From Saccharomonospora xinjiangensis XJ-54 (lineage in GTDB: Bacteria; Actinomycetota; Actinomycetes; Mycobacteriales; Pseudonocardiaceae), in NCBI RefSeq assembly GCF_000258175.1, contig NZ_JH636049.1:1899482-1963481 (forward strand): DNA of 64,000 nt. The letters run 5' to 3'. Below, piece by piece: positions 36,740 to 57,263 of the stretch. The translations under genes were made by a program, and so were the position numbers. Each line of letters starts with the position of its first letter. Positions within the stretch are counted from its first letter, which is position 1. The notes under the pieces were generated by a model, which was given only the letters and a program-made list of their open reading frames with translations, had not been told where the DNA came from and made no database searches.

Positions 36740-39228
36740 CGTTCACCTCCGGCAGCGATCGAGACCACGGCGCCGTGCCCCGCACCGAGCGTGGCGCGGA
36801 GCGTGGAACCCGGCGAGTTGCCCGGAAGCCACACGACACCGTCGGGGAGGTCGGCGACCTCGAAGGGCAGCGTGATCGAGCCACGACTGGTGGACACCGT
36901 CACCGTGGGCGATTCGCCGAGTGACGCCGCCATGGCCTTGGAGATCTTGGCGACCACCCGCCGCGCGGTGCCCGCGAGGTGCGGCTCGTCCCTCTGGAGC
37001 GCGCCCTCGTCGAGCAACTGCCGCCACGTCGCCAGCAGTGCCTGTCCCTCTCCGACCTTCGGAACCGGCGCGCTGGGGACGTCCGGCGCCGCAGGCCGGT
37101 GACCGCGATCGAGGCCGTCGATGCTCCGTGCGAAGTCGCCGGCCGCAGCGGTGGGTGTCTGGGTGAAGAGGTCGGCGTCCATCTCGACGGCGAGCGTGTC
37201 GAGGACACGGCAGTCGGGCAGCGCCCCTGTGCCGTCGAGCGTCACCGAGAACTCGCGCCTGCGGCCCTCCCAGTTGACGAAGCTGCCCGGCTTCTCGTCA
37301 ACGGGGGCGATGGGCAGCACCACGTCGGCGTGGTCGGTGACCTCGCTGCGCAGCAGTTCGAGGCTGACCACGAACCCGCAGCGCCGCACCGCTTCGAGCG
37401 CCAGTCCGGGGTCGGGGAGGTCGGACAGCTCGACCCCGCCGACGAGAAGTGCGTCGAGATCGCCGTTGCGGGCGGCGGTCAGGATTCCGGTGGTGTCCCT
37501 GCCCGCAACGGACGGCAGCGATCCCGCTTCGAGATTCCACGCCCGCTCCAGCGCCGCGCGGGCCTCCGCGTCGGTGACGGCGGCACCGCCGGGCAGCAGG
37601 TTCGGCAGAGCACCGGCGTCGATCGCCCCGCGCTCGCCCGCCCTGCGCGGCACCCACGCGATCGGCGCTCCCGTGCGTTCGGAGAGCCGGTGGAGCGCGG
37701 AGTAGAGGCCGGGCACCTCGGCCGCCCTCTCCCCGACGAGCACCACCGAGCCCTCGGCACGCAGCAGCTCATCGACGTCGCTCGCGTGCTCGGCGAGCCC
37801 GTCCACCGCCTCGGCCTCGGCACCGGGAACGCAGGCGAGGAGCTCCCCGAAAGTCCTTCGGACGGCCGGGGTAGTCCACTGACCGATGTGGACGACCTTC
37901 GTGCCGTTCTTGCGTGCGCCCTTGCGCAGCCGCAGGAACAGCACGGGCGCTTCCTCCTCCGGCTCGAACGCCACGCACAGCACCAGCGGCGCCGTTTCGA
38001 GCTGGCCGAACGTGACGCCGGTGTCCGGTGTGGTTCCGACGACGTGGGAGGCGAGGAAGTCCAGCTCCTCAGGAGAGTGCGCCCTCGCCCTGAAGTCGAT
38101 GTCGTTGGTCCGCAACGCCATCCTGGCGAACTTGCTGTAGGCGTAGGCGTCCTCGACTGTCAGCCTGCCGCCGGGCAGCACTCCTGCGCCACGGCCGTCG
38201 CGGGCCTTCGCCAGTCCCTCCGCCGCCACGCGCAGTGCCTGTGTCCACGACGTCCGCTCCAGCTCCCCTGTCTCGGGGTTGCGCACGAGCGGGTGGCGGA
38301 TGCGGTCGGCCGCACCCGCGTACCGGAAGGCGAAGCGGCCCTTGTCGCAGAGCCATTCCTCGTTGACCTCGGGGTCGTCACCGGCGAGGCGGCGCATCAC
38401 CTTGCCGCGCCGGAAGTCAGTCCGCATCGCGCAGCCCACCGAGCAGTGCTCGCACACGCTCGGCGACGACACGAGGTCGAACGGCCGCGAGCGGAACCGG
38501 TACTGAGCGCTGGTCAGCGCGCCGACGGGGCAGATCTGGATGGTGTTGCCGGAGAAGTACGACTGGAACGGCGTCCCGCTGCTGGTGCGGGAAGCGAGAT
38601 CAAGAACGTCGGCCGTCTCCGAGGTCCCGATCTGTTGCTGCGCACCGCGTTCGAGCAGTTCGATGAACGGGTCGCCCGCGATCTGGGCCGAGAAGCGCGT
38701 GCACCGCTGGCACAGCACGCACCGCTCGCGGTCGAGCAGCACCTGCGTGGAGATCGGCAGCGGTTTCGGGAACGTGCGCTTGCGGTCGCGGAAGCGGGAT
38801 TCGGCCCTCCCGTGGGCCATCGCCTGGTTCTGCAAAGGGCACTCGCCGCCCTTGTCGCAGATCGGGCAGTCCAGCGGGTGATTGATGAGCAGCAGCTCCA
38901 TCACACCCTGCTGTGCCTTGTCCGCGACGGGCGAGGTCCGCTGGGTCTTCACGACCATGCCGTCCGCGACGGTCATCGTGCACGAAGCCTGCGGCTTCGG
39001 CATGGGGCGGCCGTTCATCTCGACCTCGACGAGGCATTGCCTGCACGCGCCTGCGGGGTCGAGCAGCGGGTGGTCGCAGAACCGGGGGATGACAGTGCCC
39101 AGCCGCTCGGCGGTGCGGATCAGCAACTCGCCCTTGGGGGCGATGACCTCTTCACCGTCGATGGTGAGCTTGACGTGGCCCTCCGGAACCGGTGTCTCGT
39201 CCGAGGCCGCCTCGGGTGCGATGGTCAT
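36736..39228 (-). CDS. nuoG: NADH-quinone oxidoreductase subunit G
   Basis: An 830-residue peripheral-arm subunit. Iron-sulfur motifs: the 2Fe-2S N1b ligands in [20 protein letters not shown], the His/Cys set of N5 in [19 protein letters not shown], and N4-type cysteines in [15 protein letters not shown] and [11 protein letters not shown] molybdopterin-oxidoreductase-like domain without cofactor follows, plus a C-terminal MopB-type domain ([20 protein letters not shown]). The start is ATG 39228, overlapping the nuoF stop. Confidence 0.97.
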
Positions 39229-40514
39229 GATGCTCCCACCAATTCGGGCGAGTGCGCCCGGTTCTTCTCACACAGTTCGACGAACTCGTCGCGGAAGTAC
39301 TTGATGGCGCTGGTGATGGGGCTCGTGGCACCGTCGCCGAGCGCGCAGAACGAGCGGCCGAGGATGTTGTCGCAGATGTCGAGCAACGTGTCGATGTCCT
39401 CGGTGGTGCCGTGGCCGTCCACCATGCGTTCGAGGATCTGCGCCAGCCAGTAGGTGCCCTCCCTGCACGGGGTGCACTTGCCGCAGGACTCGTGCTCGTA
39501 GAACTGGGTCCACTTCATCACGGCCCACGGCACGGACACGGTCTCGTTGAACACCTGTACGGCCGTGGTTCCGAGCATCGACCCCGCCTCGGCCGCGCCC
39601 TCGAAGTCCAGTGGCACGTCGAGGTGTTCGGCCGTGAACAACGGCGTCGAAGAACCACCCGGCGTCCAGAACTTCAGCGGGATACCGTCCTTCATGCCGC
39701 CGGCCATCTCCAGCAGCTGACGCAGCGTGGTGCCGAGTGGCGCCTCGTACTGACCCGGCTTCTCCACGTGGCCGGAGATCGAGTAGATCTTCGGGCCGGG
39801 CGACTTCTCGGTGCCCATCTGCCGGAACCAGTCGGCCCCACCGTTGACGATGTAGGGAACACTGGCGATGGTCTCGACGTTGTTCACCGTGGTGGGTGCG
39901 GCGTAGAGGCCCGCTGCCGCGGGGAAGGGCGGCTTCAGCCTCGGCTGGCCACGGCGGCCTTCCAGCGAGTCGAGCAGCGCCGTCTCCTCACCACAGATGT
40001 AGGCGCCAGCACCCGCGTGCACAGTGATGTCGAGGTCGAACCCTGAGCCGAGGATGTTCTTGCCGAGGTACCCCGCCTTGTACGCCTCGCGCACAGCCGC
40101 GTTGAGCCTGCGGATCGGGTGCAGTGCCTCGCCACGCACGTAGATGAAGCAGCGATGCGACCGCATGGCGTAGGAGGCGATGACACAACCCTCGATGAGC
40201 GAGTGAGGGTCGGCCATCATCAGCGGGATGTCCTTGCAGGTACCCGGTTCCCCCTCGTCGGCGTTGATCACGAGGTAGTGGGGCTTGTCCTCGTTCGGCG
40301 GCATGAACGACCACTTCACGCCTGCCGGGAATCCCGCACCGCCACGGCCACGCAGGCCCGCGGCCTTGACGAGCTCCACGAGTTGTTCCGGCGTTCCGGA
40401 CAGCGCCTTGCGAAGGGCCGTGTAGCCCTCCAGCTTCTCGTACGTCGCCAGACGCCACGACTGCGGTGAGAGCCACCGCTTCGTCAGAACCGGCGTCAAC
40501 GGATCGGCTGTCAT
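39225..40514 (-). CDS. nuoF: NADH-quinone oxidoreductase subunit F (NADH/FMN-binding)
   Basis: A 429-residue subunit, start ATG 40514. The NADH/FMN motifs [37 protein letters not shown] and [18 protein letters not shown] are intact. The N3 4Fe-4S ligands are in [16 protein letters not shown] and in [10 protein letters not shown]. The start overlaps the stop of a preceding mini-ORF (ATGA at 40511-40514), with GGGAGG 8 bases upstream. The frame is open back to 40658, but that part lies in the tandem repeat and is not NuoF-like. NuoF accepts hydride from NADH. Confidence 0.97.
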
Positions 40515-40624
40515 TTCTGAACCTCCCACTGCGGGACACTCTCCCCTACTGCGGCAGAAGCACCTGCCGCAGCGGGGGCCGACCCCGGTCGGCTCCACGA
40601 ACGCGACAAACCAGCGTCGTTCAT
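40511..40624 (-). CDS. Mini-ORF 3 between nuoE and nuoF (37 residues)
   Basis: Starts [14 protein letters not shown] exactly like the two mini-ORFs before it, then has an Ala-rich middle (SAPAAAGASAAVGES) and ends VPQWEVQK. Its ATG (40624) overlaps the stop of mini-ORF 2 and its stop overlaps the nuoF start, both as ATGA. A GGAGGTGGAGG lies just before its start. It is the only mini-ORF not fully inside a perfect repeat unit and may be the ancestral one. Product function unknown. Confidence 0.5.
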   Translation of the reverse strand: MNDAGLSRSWSRPGSAPAAAGASAAVGESVPQWEVQK

Positions 40625-40698
40625 TTCGCCTCCACCTCCCACTGCGGGACACCCGCACCCGGTCGGCTCCACGAACGCGACAAACCAGCGTCGTTCAT
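40621..40698 (-). CDS. Mini-ORF 2 between nuoE and nuoF (25 residues)
   Basis: Encodes [10 protein letters not shown]...VPQWEVEAK, identical in DNA to mini-ORF 1. Start and stop overlap the neighbouring mini-ORFs as ATGA, and GGAGGTGGAGG precedes the ATG. It is part of the 74-bp tandem repeat. Probably translated by re-initiation if ribosomes pass from nuoE to nuoF. Function unknown. Confidence 0.5.
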   Translation of the reverse strand: MNDAGLSRSWSRPGAGVPQWEVEAK

Positions 40699-40772
40699 TT
40701 CGCCTCCACCTCCCACTGCGGGACACCCGCACCCGGTCGGCTCCACGAACGCGACAAACCAGCGTCGTTCAT
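40695..40772 (-). CDS. Mini-ORF 1 between nuoE and nuoF (25 residues)
   Basis: Begins at ATG 40772, inside the nuoE stop (ATGA), with GGAGGTGGAGGCGAA immediately before it. It encodes [10 protein letters not shown]...VPQWEVEAK. Its last five residues, EVEAK, equal the end of NuoE, reflecting the shared repeat sequence. It ends in another ATGA. Not recognisable as a known peptide. Confidence 0.5.
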   Translation of the reverse strand: MNDAGLSRSWSRPGAGVPQWEVEAK

Positions 40773-41647
40773 TTCGCCTCCACCTCCGGCAACGGGGCGT
40801 TCTCCGGCATCACCGGCGCCGTCCAACCGCGATCCGCCGCGAGCTGCGCTCCCCGCAGCGTCTCGACCGCCTGTGATGGAGCGTCCACATCGGAGCGGAA
40901 CACGTCCTCCTCCTCGGGGAAGAACCCGGCGAGCTGGCGTTCCACGGACTTGAAGTCGGTCAGCGGCGCGCCTCGTGTCGGCTGCGGCTTCTCGCCCCTG
41001 CGCAGCGCATCGACGAGTTCGACGGCCTTCTCCGGCGTCTGGTTGTCGAAGTACTCGTAGTTCACCTGGATGACGGGGCCGAGATCGCAGGCAGCGAGGC
41101 ATTCCGCGTGTTCGAGCGTGATGGAACCGGGTTCGCCCGGCTCGCCCGCGGTCTCCTCGTGGCCGAGCGGCTTGCCGTCCTCACCGAGGTGCTCCGACAG
41201 TCGCTTGTAGATGTCGTCACCGCCGAGCACGGCGCACAACGTGTTGGTGCACACGCTCACGAGATGCTGCCCGCACGGCCTGCGCTTGTACATCGTGTAG
41301 AAGGTGGCGACCGCGCTGACCTCGGCCTCCGTGAGGTCGAGCTGCCTCGCGCAGAACGCGATGCCCTCCTGGCTCACGTAACCCTGTACCGACTGCACGA
41401 GGTGCAGCATCGGCAGCAGCGCCGAACGCGACTGCGGGTAGCGCGCGGCGAGTTCACCCGCCTTCGCCTCGATCTCCGGGCCGAACTCCTCGGCGACCGA
41501 AGGCTGTGTCGGCGGCGATGTCACCTCATCGGCGACCGGCGAGATCGCCTTGACGTCCACGTCGGGCGACGCGGCGGCGTAGGTCCTCTCGGCAGGCCGC
41601 GAACCTGGCCGCGGTGTCTCCGAAGGCTGTTGCGACGGTGTGGTCAT
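40769..41647 (-). CDS. nuoE: NADH-quinone oxidoreductase subunit E (2Fe-2S)
   Basis: A 292-residue subunit from ATG 41647 (ATGA overlap with nuoD). The first 55 residues are a low-complexity leader ([20 protein letters not shown]). The thioredoxin-like core carries the N1a ligands in [13 protein letters not shown] and [12 protein letters not shown]. About 80 C-terminal residues ([20 protein letters not shown], and so on) extend beyond the E. coli length, as in other actinobacteria. It ends LPEVEAK; the last 17 bases belong to the 74-bp repeat array that follows. Confidence 0.96.
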
Positions 41648-56688: not shown

Positions 56689-57263
56689 CGTGTCCCCGGC
56701 GTCTCGTCGGTCTCCGTGCCGCTGCGGCCGGCACCGTCGGTGTCGCCGGTGTGGCCAGCGGAGTCAGGGGAATCAGCGGCGTCACCGGCGTCAGCGGCGT
56801 CACCGGCGTCAGCGGCGTCACCGGCGTCAGCGGCGTCACCGGCGTCAGCGGCGTCACCGGCGTCACCGTTGTCGATGCGCTCGGCGGTGCCCGCGCGTTC
56901 GGCGGTGTCGGCGCGACCTGTGGTGTCGGCGGCGCCCGCGGTGTCACTGCGCTCGGTTTCTCCCGAGGGCTCGTCGTCACCGCCCGCCTCGAACGTCTCG
57001 CCACGCAACTCGGCACGCAAGCGCGCGCGCTCAGCGGCCCGGTGCGCGTTACGCGCTGCGAGGCCCTCGGTCACCCTCGCGTTGAGGGACCGGAAGAGCA
57101 GCAGGCCGAGAGGAAGCCCGACGACCAGCCCGATGACGAGGCCGACGAGCAGAGGAACCCTGGCCACCACGAGGATCGCCGCGATCACCGCGACGAGCAC
57201 GAACCGGGCGAGCACGTACAGGGTGAGATCACGGACAAGCGTGTCGGATGGGCGGTCGCTCAC
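56685..57263 (-). CDS. DUF4229-type membrane protein with tandem hexapeptide tail
   Basis: About 192 residues from GTG 57263 (the frame is open to 57317). Two close transmembrane helices ([20 protein letters not shown] and [20 protein letters not shown]) precede a basic helical segment ([20 protein letters not shown]), which is the DUF4229 pattern. The C-terminal 90 residues are acidic and low-complexity, including about five copies of a DAADAG-like hexapeptide encoded by an 18-bp tandem repeat. Function unknown. It is coupled to the Cds1-like gene by GTGA. Confidence 0.7.
56775..56864. repeat. 18-bp tandem repeat, 5 copies, in-frame in the DUF4229 gene
   Basis: The unit AGCGGCGTCACCGGCGTC recurs exactly from 56775, 56793, 56811, 56829 and 56847. 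The unit length is a multiple of three, so copy number changes keep the frame. Flanking units are degenerate, showing an expanding microsatellite within the tail. Confidence 0.95.

Follow-up and report, generated by a model that had tools for sequence, protein, structure and literature searches.

What is a chain of three miniature ORFs doing between nuoE and nuoF, and is it peculiar to Complex I? The chain lies in a 64,000-nucleotide stretch of the Saccharomonospora xinjiangensis XJ-54 genome, referred to here as the window, in which NCBIfam matches identified NuoE, NuoF and NuoG. On the minus strand, nuoE (292 aa; 40769..41647) is followed by three mini-ORFs, 25, 25 and 37 codons long, and then by nuoF (429 aa; 39225..40514), all joined by four ATGA overlaps. 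The TGA of nuoE contributes to the first of these, overlapping the ATG of mini-ORF1 (unit 1; 40695..40772). Mini-ORF2 (unit 2; 40621..40698), identical to mini-ORF1, and mini-ORF3 (unit 3; 40511..40624), a long form with an additional internal hairpin, each open in an ATGA, and the nuoF start lies within the last. GGAGG or GGGAGG precedes every start in the chain, and Tandem Repeats Finder reports a period of 74 over positions 40584-40787 (2.8 copies, 100% match). The chain, its coordinates, its tandem repeat and its Shine-Dalgarno motifs were all as a first-pass annotation of the sequence had described them. That annotation also held that the agreement between the 74-bp period and an ORF length of 78 less a 4-base overlap would rarely be preserved by chance. 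However, whenever an open ORF has NTGA at each of its two ends, the start-to-start distance is the ORF length minus 4, so duplication always keeps the overlaps; the relation is the arithmetic of an ATGA-ended unit and no sign of selection. Within window positions 40400-40900, a scan found no terminator in the array, and two Rfam matches were both far below the gathering score. Elsewhere in the window, an 18-bp tandem repeat (56773-56865; 5.2 copies, 100% match) bears no relation to the nuoE-nuoF repeat.

Used as a query against its own genome, the array detected related sequence at seven further junctions, so that the repeat, first taken as a feature of nuoE-nuoF, is not confined to that junction. 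We recognised 17 units at eight loci: nuoE-nuoF, gltB-gltD, a second gltD, pheS-pheT, pyrB-pyrC, lysA-hom and two ABC transporters. Neighbouring genes were named by NCBIfam, hom as encoding homoserine dehydrogenase, with the transporter genes, a partial GltB and a partial PheT scoring below curated cut-offs; at the second gltD locus the name covers GltD, without its upstream gene. The 17 units comprise 12 short cores with at most one mismatch to the search pattern CCGACCGGGTGCGGGYGYCCCGC, another short core that has an additional G, and four long cores. Two own-genome matches with three mismatches are probably due to chance, and of several long-core matches with one or two mismatches, which occurred near the control level, four were inspected and were not the repeat. 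Within the window, the minus-strand core of unit 1 (CCGACCGGGTGCGGGTGTCCCGC) occupies 40718..40740 (contig 1940199-1940221), with its hairpin TGCGGG-TGT-CCCGCA at 40717-40731; that of unit 2 occupies 40644..40666 (contig 1940125-1940147), and the long-form core of unit 3 begins at 40575..40592 (contig 1940056-1940073). Judged by its sequence, what lies at nuoE-nuoF is a dispersed repeat of about 72 bp in three tandem copies.

The core was present in all 12 genomes of Saccharomonospora, where a reversed-pattern control gave 1 match in total. Across the Pseudonocardiaceae it was found in 125 of 390 genomes, belonging to 30 of 46 genera, at up to 40 copies, with 0 reversed-pattern hits among the matches listed. 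A class-wide sample of 394 genomes, 3 of them from the family, placed it in 3 of the 391 outside. One of these, of the same order (G749), has four copies on the same hairpin plan, and the other two have a single 1-mismatch match each; the reversed pattern also yielded three single matches class-wide, so these two outsiders stand at control level. The copies in G749, which belongs to another family of that order, are a possible case of horizontal transfer (L280-L283). The counts are lower bounds, since relatives' arrays with only long-form cores fell outside the search; the pheS-pheT arrays of G004 and G010 were found by protein. Five 2-mismatch genus matches, likely due to chance, were left out (one each in G001, G002, G003, G004 and G006). 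A single diverged copy in G009 (L219) could be assigned to no gene junction and has no long direct repeat. A search of the open-access literature found no description of this repeat.

Orthologous junctions are found both with and without the repeat. At nuoE-nuoF, 3 of 12 genus genomes have a bare ATGA and the other nine have 1-3 units of short or long form, and among 80 named relatives the core was recognisable in 3 and not recognised in 77. Comparison of this junction across relatives had been proposed as a check on the locus, and on this outcome a conserved Complex I function falls. In Prauserella alba (L056) and Amycolatopsis taiwanensis (L042), the same junction holds small ORFs without the core, possibly remnants or another element. 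The pheS-pheT junction is empty in 6 of the 12 genus genomes and filled in 6. In G004, the variant TGAACGATG stands on both sides of the pheS-pheT insert, and G005 and G006 show it once at their empty sites, a pattern that would suit either a gain in G004 or a precise loss from the other two genomes. The flanking copies in G010 are not alike. At one further junction (L207, in G007), the gene is present in 7 of the 12 genus genomes. Of 73 genus arrays, 59 lie between direct repeats of at least 10 bp (median 16), length being the sole criterion, as do 10 of 25 arrays from five genomes of other genera; the outer copies of the window's own array share only 7 bp. In a minority context, the repeat lies in frame inside a gene, nuoG of G001 (L177) and G006 (L199). 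The insertion lengthens these two NuoG proteins by about two dozen residues, which follow ETADV, precede ASRT and are absent from the window's NuoG.

To describe the unit, we used 134 genus units in 75 arrays, after removing one false core in nuoE from 135; discounting two second reads left 73 arrays. As these are partly orthologues, they were grouped by flank similarity into 19 junction families, one of which merges both gltD junctions. Throughout the 75 arrays, a unit begins with the local start stretch and its Shine-Dalgarno sequence, continues through a loop, often GAGGATGGT-like, to the reverse complement of that start stretch, and then through the core with its hairpin TGCGGG-TGT-CCCGCA to the next start stretch. 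In unit 1 of the window, the 5' arm is the local start stretch GGCGAAATGAACG (40766..40778, minus strand; identical letters at 40692-40704 in unit 2 and 40618-40630 in unit 3), and the 3' arm is its imperfect reverse complement, CGTTCGTGGAGCC (40739..40751, minus strand; identical letters at 40665-40677 and 40591-40603). Pairing between these two arms covers 10 of 14 positions.

The 3' arm is specific to its locus. With one unit taken per junction family (n=19), the summed duplex energy of start stretches with their own arms was -414 kcal/mol, whereas permuting the arms gave -268 (sd 15); 0 of 20,000 permutations did as well, and the own arm was the best partner in 12 of the 19 families. In the window's junction family one other arm pairs equally well or better. 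The same test on 25 arrays from other genera gave -507 against -332 (sd 17), again with 0 of 20,000 permutations as good and the own arm best in 12 of 25. That set was drawn from 114 matches in five genomes chosen for many copies, 30 loci yielding 25 arrays once four that repeat an array and one without a core in its centre were removed. The 3' arm is, on these pairing energies, complementary to its own unit's start stretch far beyond chance. The two arms also change together: at lysA-hom, GGTGTCGTGAAGCG faces TGCTTCGCGACACC in G011 (L226), and GGTGTCGTGACGTG faces CACGGCATGACGCC in G009 (L214). Predicted folds of 19 units have a mean z of -2.7, with 13 of 19 below -2, and the whole window array has a z of -3.0; by our own reading of the 19, GGAGG pairs with the CCGACC of the core in 13, the window's unit not being among them, and the core hairpin forms in 16. 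The arm fits the next start stretch (mean -20.5) about as well as its own (-21.4), the next-start window being the longer of the two, and in a comparison that leaves out L284 the own stretch was the stronger partner in only 27 of 73 arrays. Pairing of the arms is still found where the start codon is gone (L187, L216, L220), and the arms are matched in the nuoG insertions as well, so the hairpin may serve the spread of the element rather than translation. The second unit of L175 has likewise lost its start codon, and its hairpin arms still match.

Coupling of the reading frames was assessed in 129 units of 70 arrays, leaving out the three loci not at a start (L177, L199, L219). Here 53 mini-ORFs end at the next start (28 at -4 and 16 at -8) and 39 run in frame into the next ORF; the rest stop early (12), overrun (6), have no start (12) or have no recognised next start (7). 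The translational coupling through ATGA originally proposed for the window is sound insofar as a ribosome path is kept in 92 of 110 assessable genus units, a raw count taken without a null expectation, but 30 of the 129 units break the chain by a missing start, an early stop or an overrun. Tandem copies are most commonly spaced 72 bases apart (27 of 59 spacings). A period of 72 keeps the frame, and the window's period of 74 keeps the ATGA. Frames taken from the longest stop-to-stop ORFs are unreliable in this DNA and were set aside. Among open units, the core is in phase 1 in 71, phase 2 in 29 and phase 0 in 6, with a further 11 units closed and 17 lacking a start; the first of these phases predominates (71 of 106 open units), yet all three are in use, and no single peptide is conserved.

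Several explanations of the array have to be weighed against a mobile repeat. One is a regulatory hairpin maintained locus by locus, in which selection would keep the 3' arm complementary so as to throttle initiation, a cis-acting translational switch whose single arm could close either start. Both permutation tests speak for this reading, as does the fit of the 3' arm to its own and the next start stretch. In the window, the predicted unpaired probability of the start codon is 0.01, 0.01 and 0.15 for the three mini-ORFs against 0.39 for nuoF, as a switch of this kind would have it. However, predicted openness is 0.31-0.60 for the Shine-Dalgarno stretches of the mini-ORFs and lower, 0.18, for that of nuoF, so that hiding of the Shine-Dalgarno sequence by the hairpin is not borne out by the model in the window. 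The stems contain more G.U than A.C pairs, 53 to 13 in the symmetric register (80%, against 62% G.U in non-cognate pairings) and 49 to 11 in a Watson-Crick-only register (82%, against 69% in the control). This excess is modest and points only faintly to pairing of the RNA strand, and with one unit per family the count is 12 to 3, too few to decide. Counting further against locus-by-locus selection, the hairpin is missing from orthologous junctions of close relatives, and its arms are matched where no start codon is left and also inside nuoG. We regard a regulatory hairpin as possible, though we lean against it.

The remaining alternatives are weaker. The first-pass annotation had suggested a small Complex I-associated peptide or a meter of the NuoE:NuoF ratio, and the ATGA chain with its good Shine-Dalgarno sequences would suit either; yet the gltBD, pheST, pyrBC, lysA-hom and transporter operons share the repeat, its core is read in three frames, and nuoE-nuoF is empty in a quarter of the genus genomes and without a recognised core in nearly all named relatives. 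We reject a Complex I peptide or stoichiometry device on the grounds of the other operons, the three frames and the empty sites, and consider it very unlikely. The units might instead drive the downstream gene from a promoter of their own, an idea put forward for the senX3-regX3 MIRUs and with precedent in MIRUs only, but no sigma-70-like promoter was found in window 40400-40900 (0 found, 0.0 expected; the scan looks for a single promoter type and performs poorly in GC-rich actinomycetes), and we think such a function improbable. Only a little less improbable is a REP-type origin, with a Y1 (RAYT) transposase mobilising the hairpin in single-stranded form: the repeat is short, palindromic and dispersed, with a conserved hairpin, but Y1_Tnp (PF01797) occurs in 4 of 12 genus genomes as against 12 of 12 for the repeat, although the enzyme may have been lost. 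A Y1 transposase as the mover is not supported, the own genome having no Y1_Tnp. The identity of the two 25-aa units might suggest local slippage or an assembly artefact, but diverged units, 1-3 in number, are present at nuoE-nuoF in the assemblies of other species and other junctions carry versions of their own, which makes this explanation scarcely credible.

We therefore favour, with a probability of roughly three in four, a dispersed repeat of about 72 bp that lies mostly at start/stop junctions in Pseudonocardiaceae operons and likely persists there because its open mini-ORF would hand ribosomes on from the upstream gene to the downstream one. The dispersal of the repeat, its varying copy number, the orthologous sites with and without it, the start/stop overlaps, the absence of a single conserved peptide and the tailored 3' arm are read directly from the DNA; the mechanism is conditional. 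The hairpin is predicted to pair the start codon of the mini-ORF, so that most of the ribosomes entering a mini-ORF would be those that come from upstream. These would terminate and re-initiate at each NTGA. The repeat itself would be mobile in the manner of a MIRU and mostly neutral to the host operon, with tandem copies arising later, presumably by unequal recombination between identical units. Quasi-palindrome correction is a template-switching mechanism and could keep the arms matched without selection. Speculatively, and in our view doubtfully, the element might tailor itself, its insertion making two copies of the target's start stretch, one direct and one inverted; each new copy would then come with a hairpin fitted to the host start and with translation of the operon already restored. 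If true, self-tailoring would be a novel way for an inserting element to copy its target. The repeat thus raises testable questions about how an element without a visible enzyme would copy its target and whether start-codon hairpins force coupled translation. It also carries a warning for annotation, as the tiny ORFs and the extra loop in some NuoG proteins are repeat-derived.

Several known systems resemble this repeat in part. Rickettsia palindromic elements (RPEs) are likewise short and palindromic and lie in frame inside protein genes, as the repeat does in nuoG of two genomes. RPEs, however, are described as about 150 bp long and encoding a conserved peptide (PMC10969869), whereas here the core is read in three frames (71, 29 and 6 units) and most copies lie at junctions. 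REP/RAYT elements and MITEs share the dispersed hairpin repeat and the direct repeats at many copies, but the direct repeats here are long and variable and the own genome lacks the Y1 enzyme.

The closest likeness is to the MIRUs of mycobacteria. Although the first-pass annotation knew of no description of such an array, its kind is described there: MIRUs are said to 'insert themselves at start codons', with coupling at -4 nt (PMC12548453), to occur in forms of 77 and 53 bp (PMC12548453, PMC4213456) and, at senX3-regX3, to have internal promoter activity (PMC4213456). As those accounts present them, MIRUs are short, dispersed, tandem in variable number and placed at start/stop overlaps with a small ORF coupled at -4 nt, and come in more than one length, comparable to the short and long units here. 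Our repeat shares the dispersal over many loci (17 units at 8 loci), the start/stop overlap with a small coupled ORF, and the variation in copy number at one site (0-3 units at nuoE-nuoF in 12 genomes). Several of the MIRU loci we compared have start/stop overlaps, with tandem spacings of about 51-54 bases; judging by the RegX3 start, two of them (L297 and L303) are probably senX3-regX3. The two repeats differ in sequence, the MIRU core being unrelated to the core described here. A MIRU core pattern matched 20 of 397 genomes of the order, 19 of them in genus g47 and none in the Pseudonocardiaceae, and no g47 genome was among the class-wide matches listed for our core. The MIRUs compared also carry GGAGGAG within their constant part, and one test of 19 MIRU loci, in windows of our own choosing, found no locus-specific complementarity (z 0.59). 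What is new here is that copies bear an inverted image of their own landing site, a feature absent from the MIRUs compared. In its workings the repeat resembles a MIRU, though by sequence it is not one, and the tailored arm distinguishes it; the way of life of MIRUs, as operon repeats that feed ribosomes through, would thereby extend to a second, unrelated repeat across the Pseudonocardiaceae.
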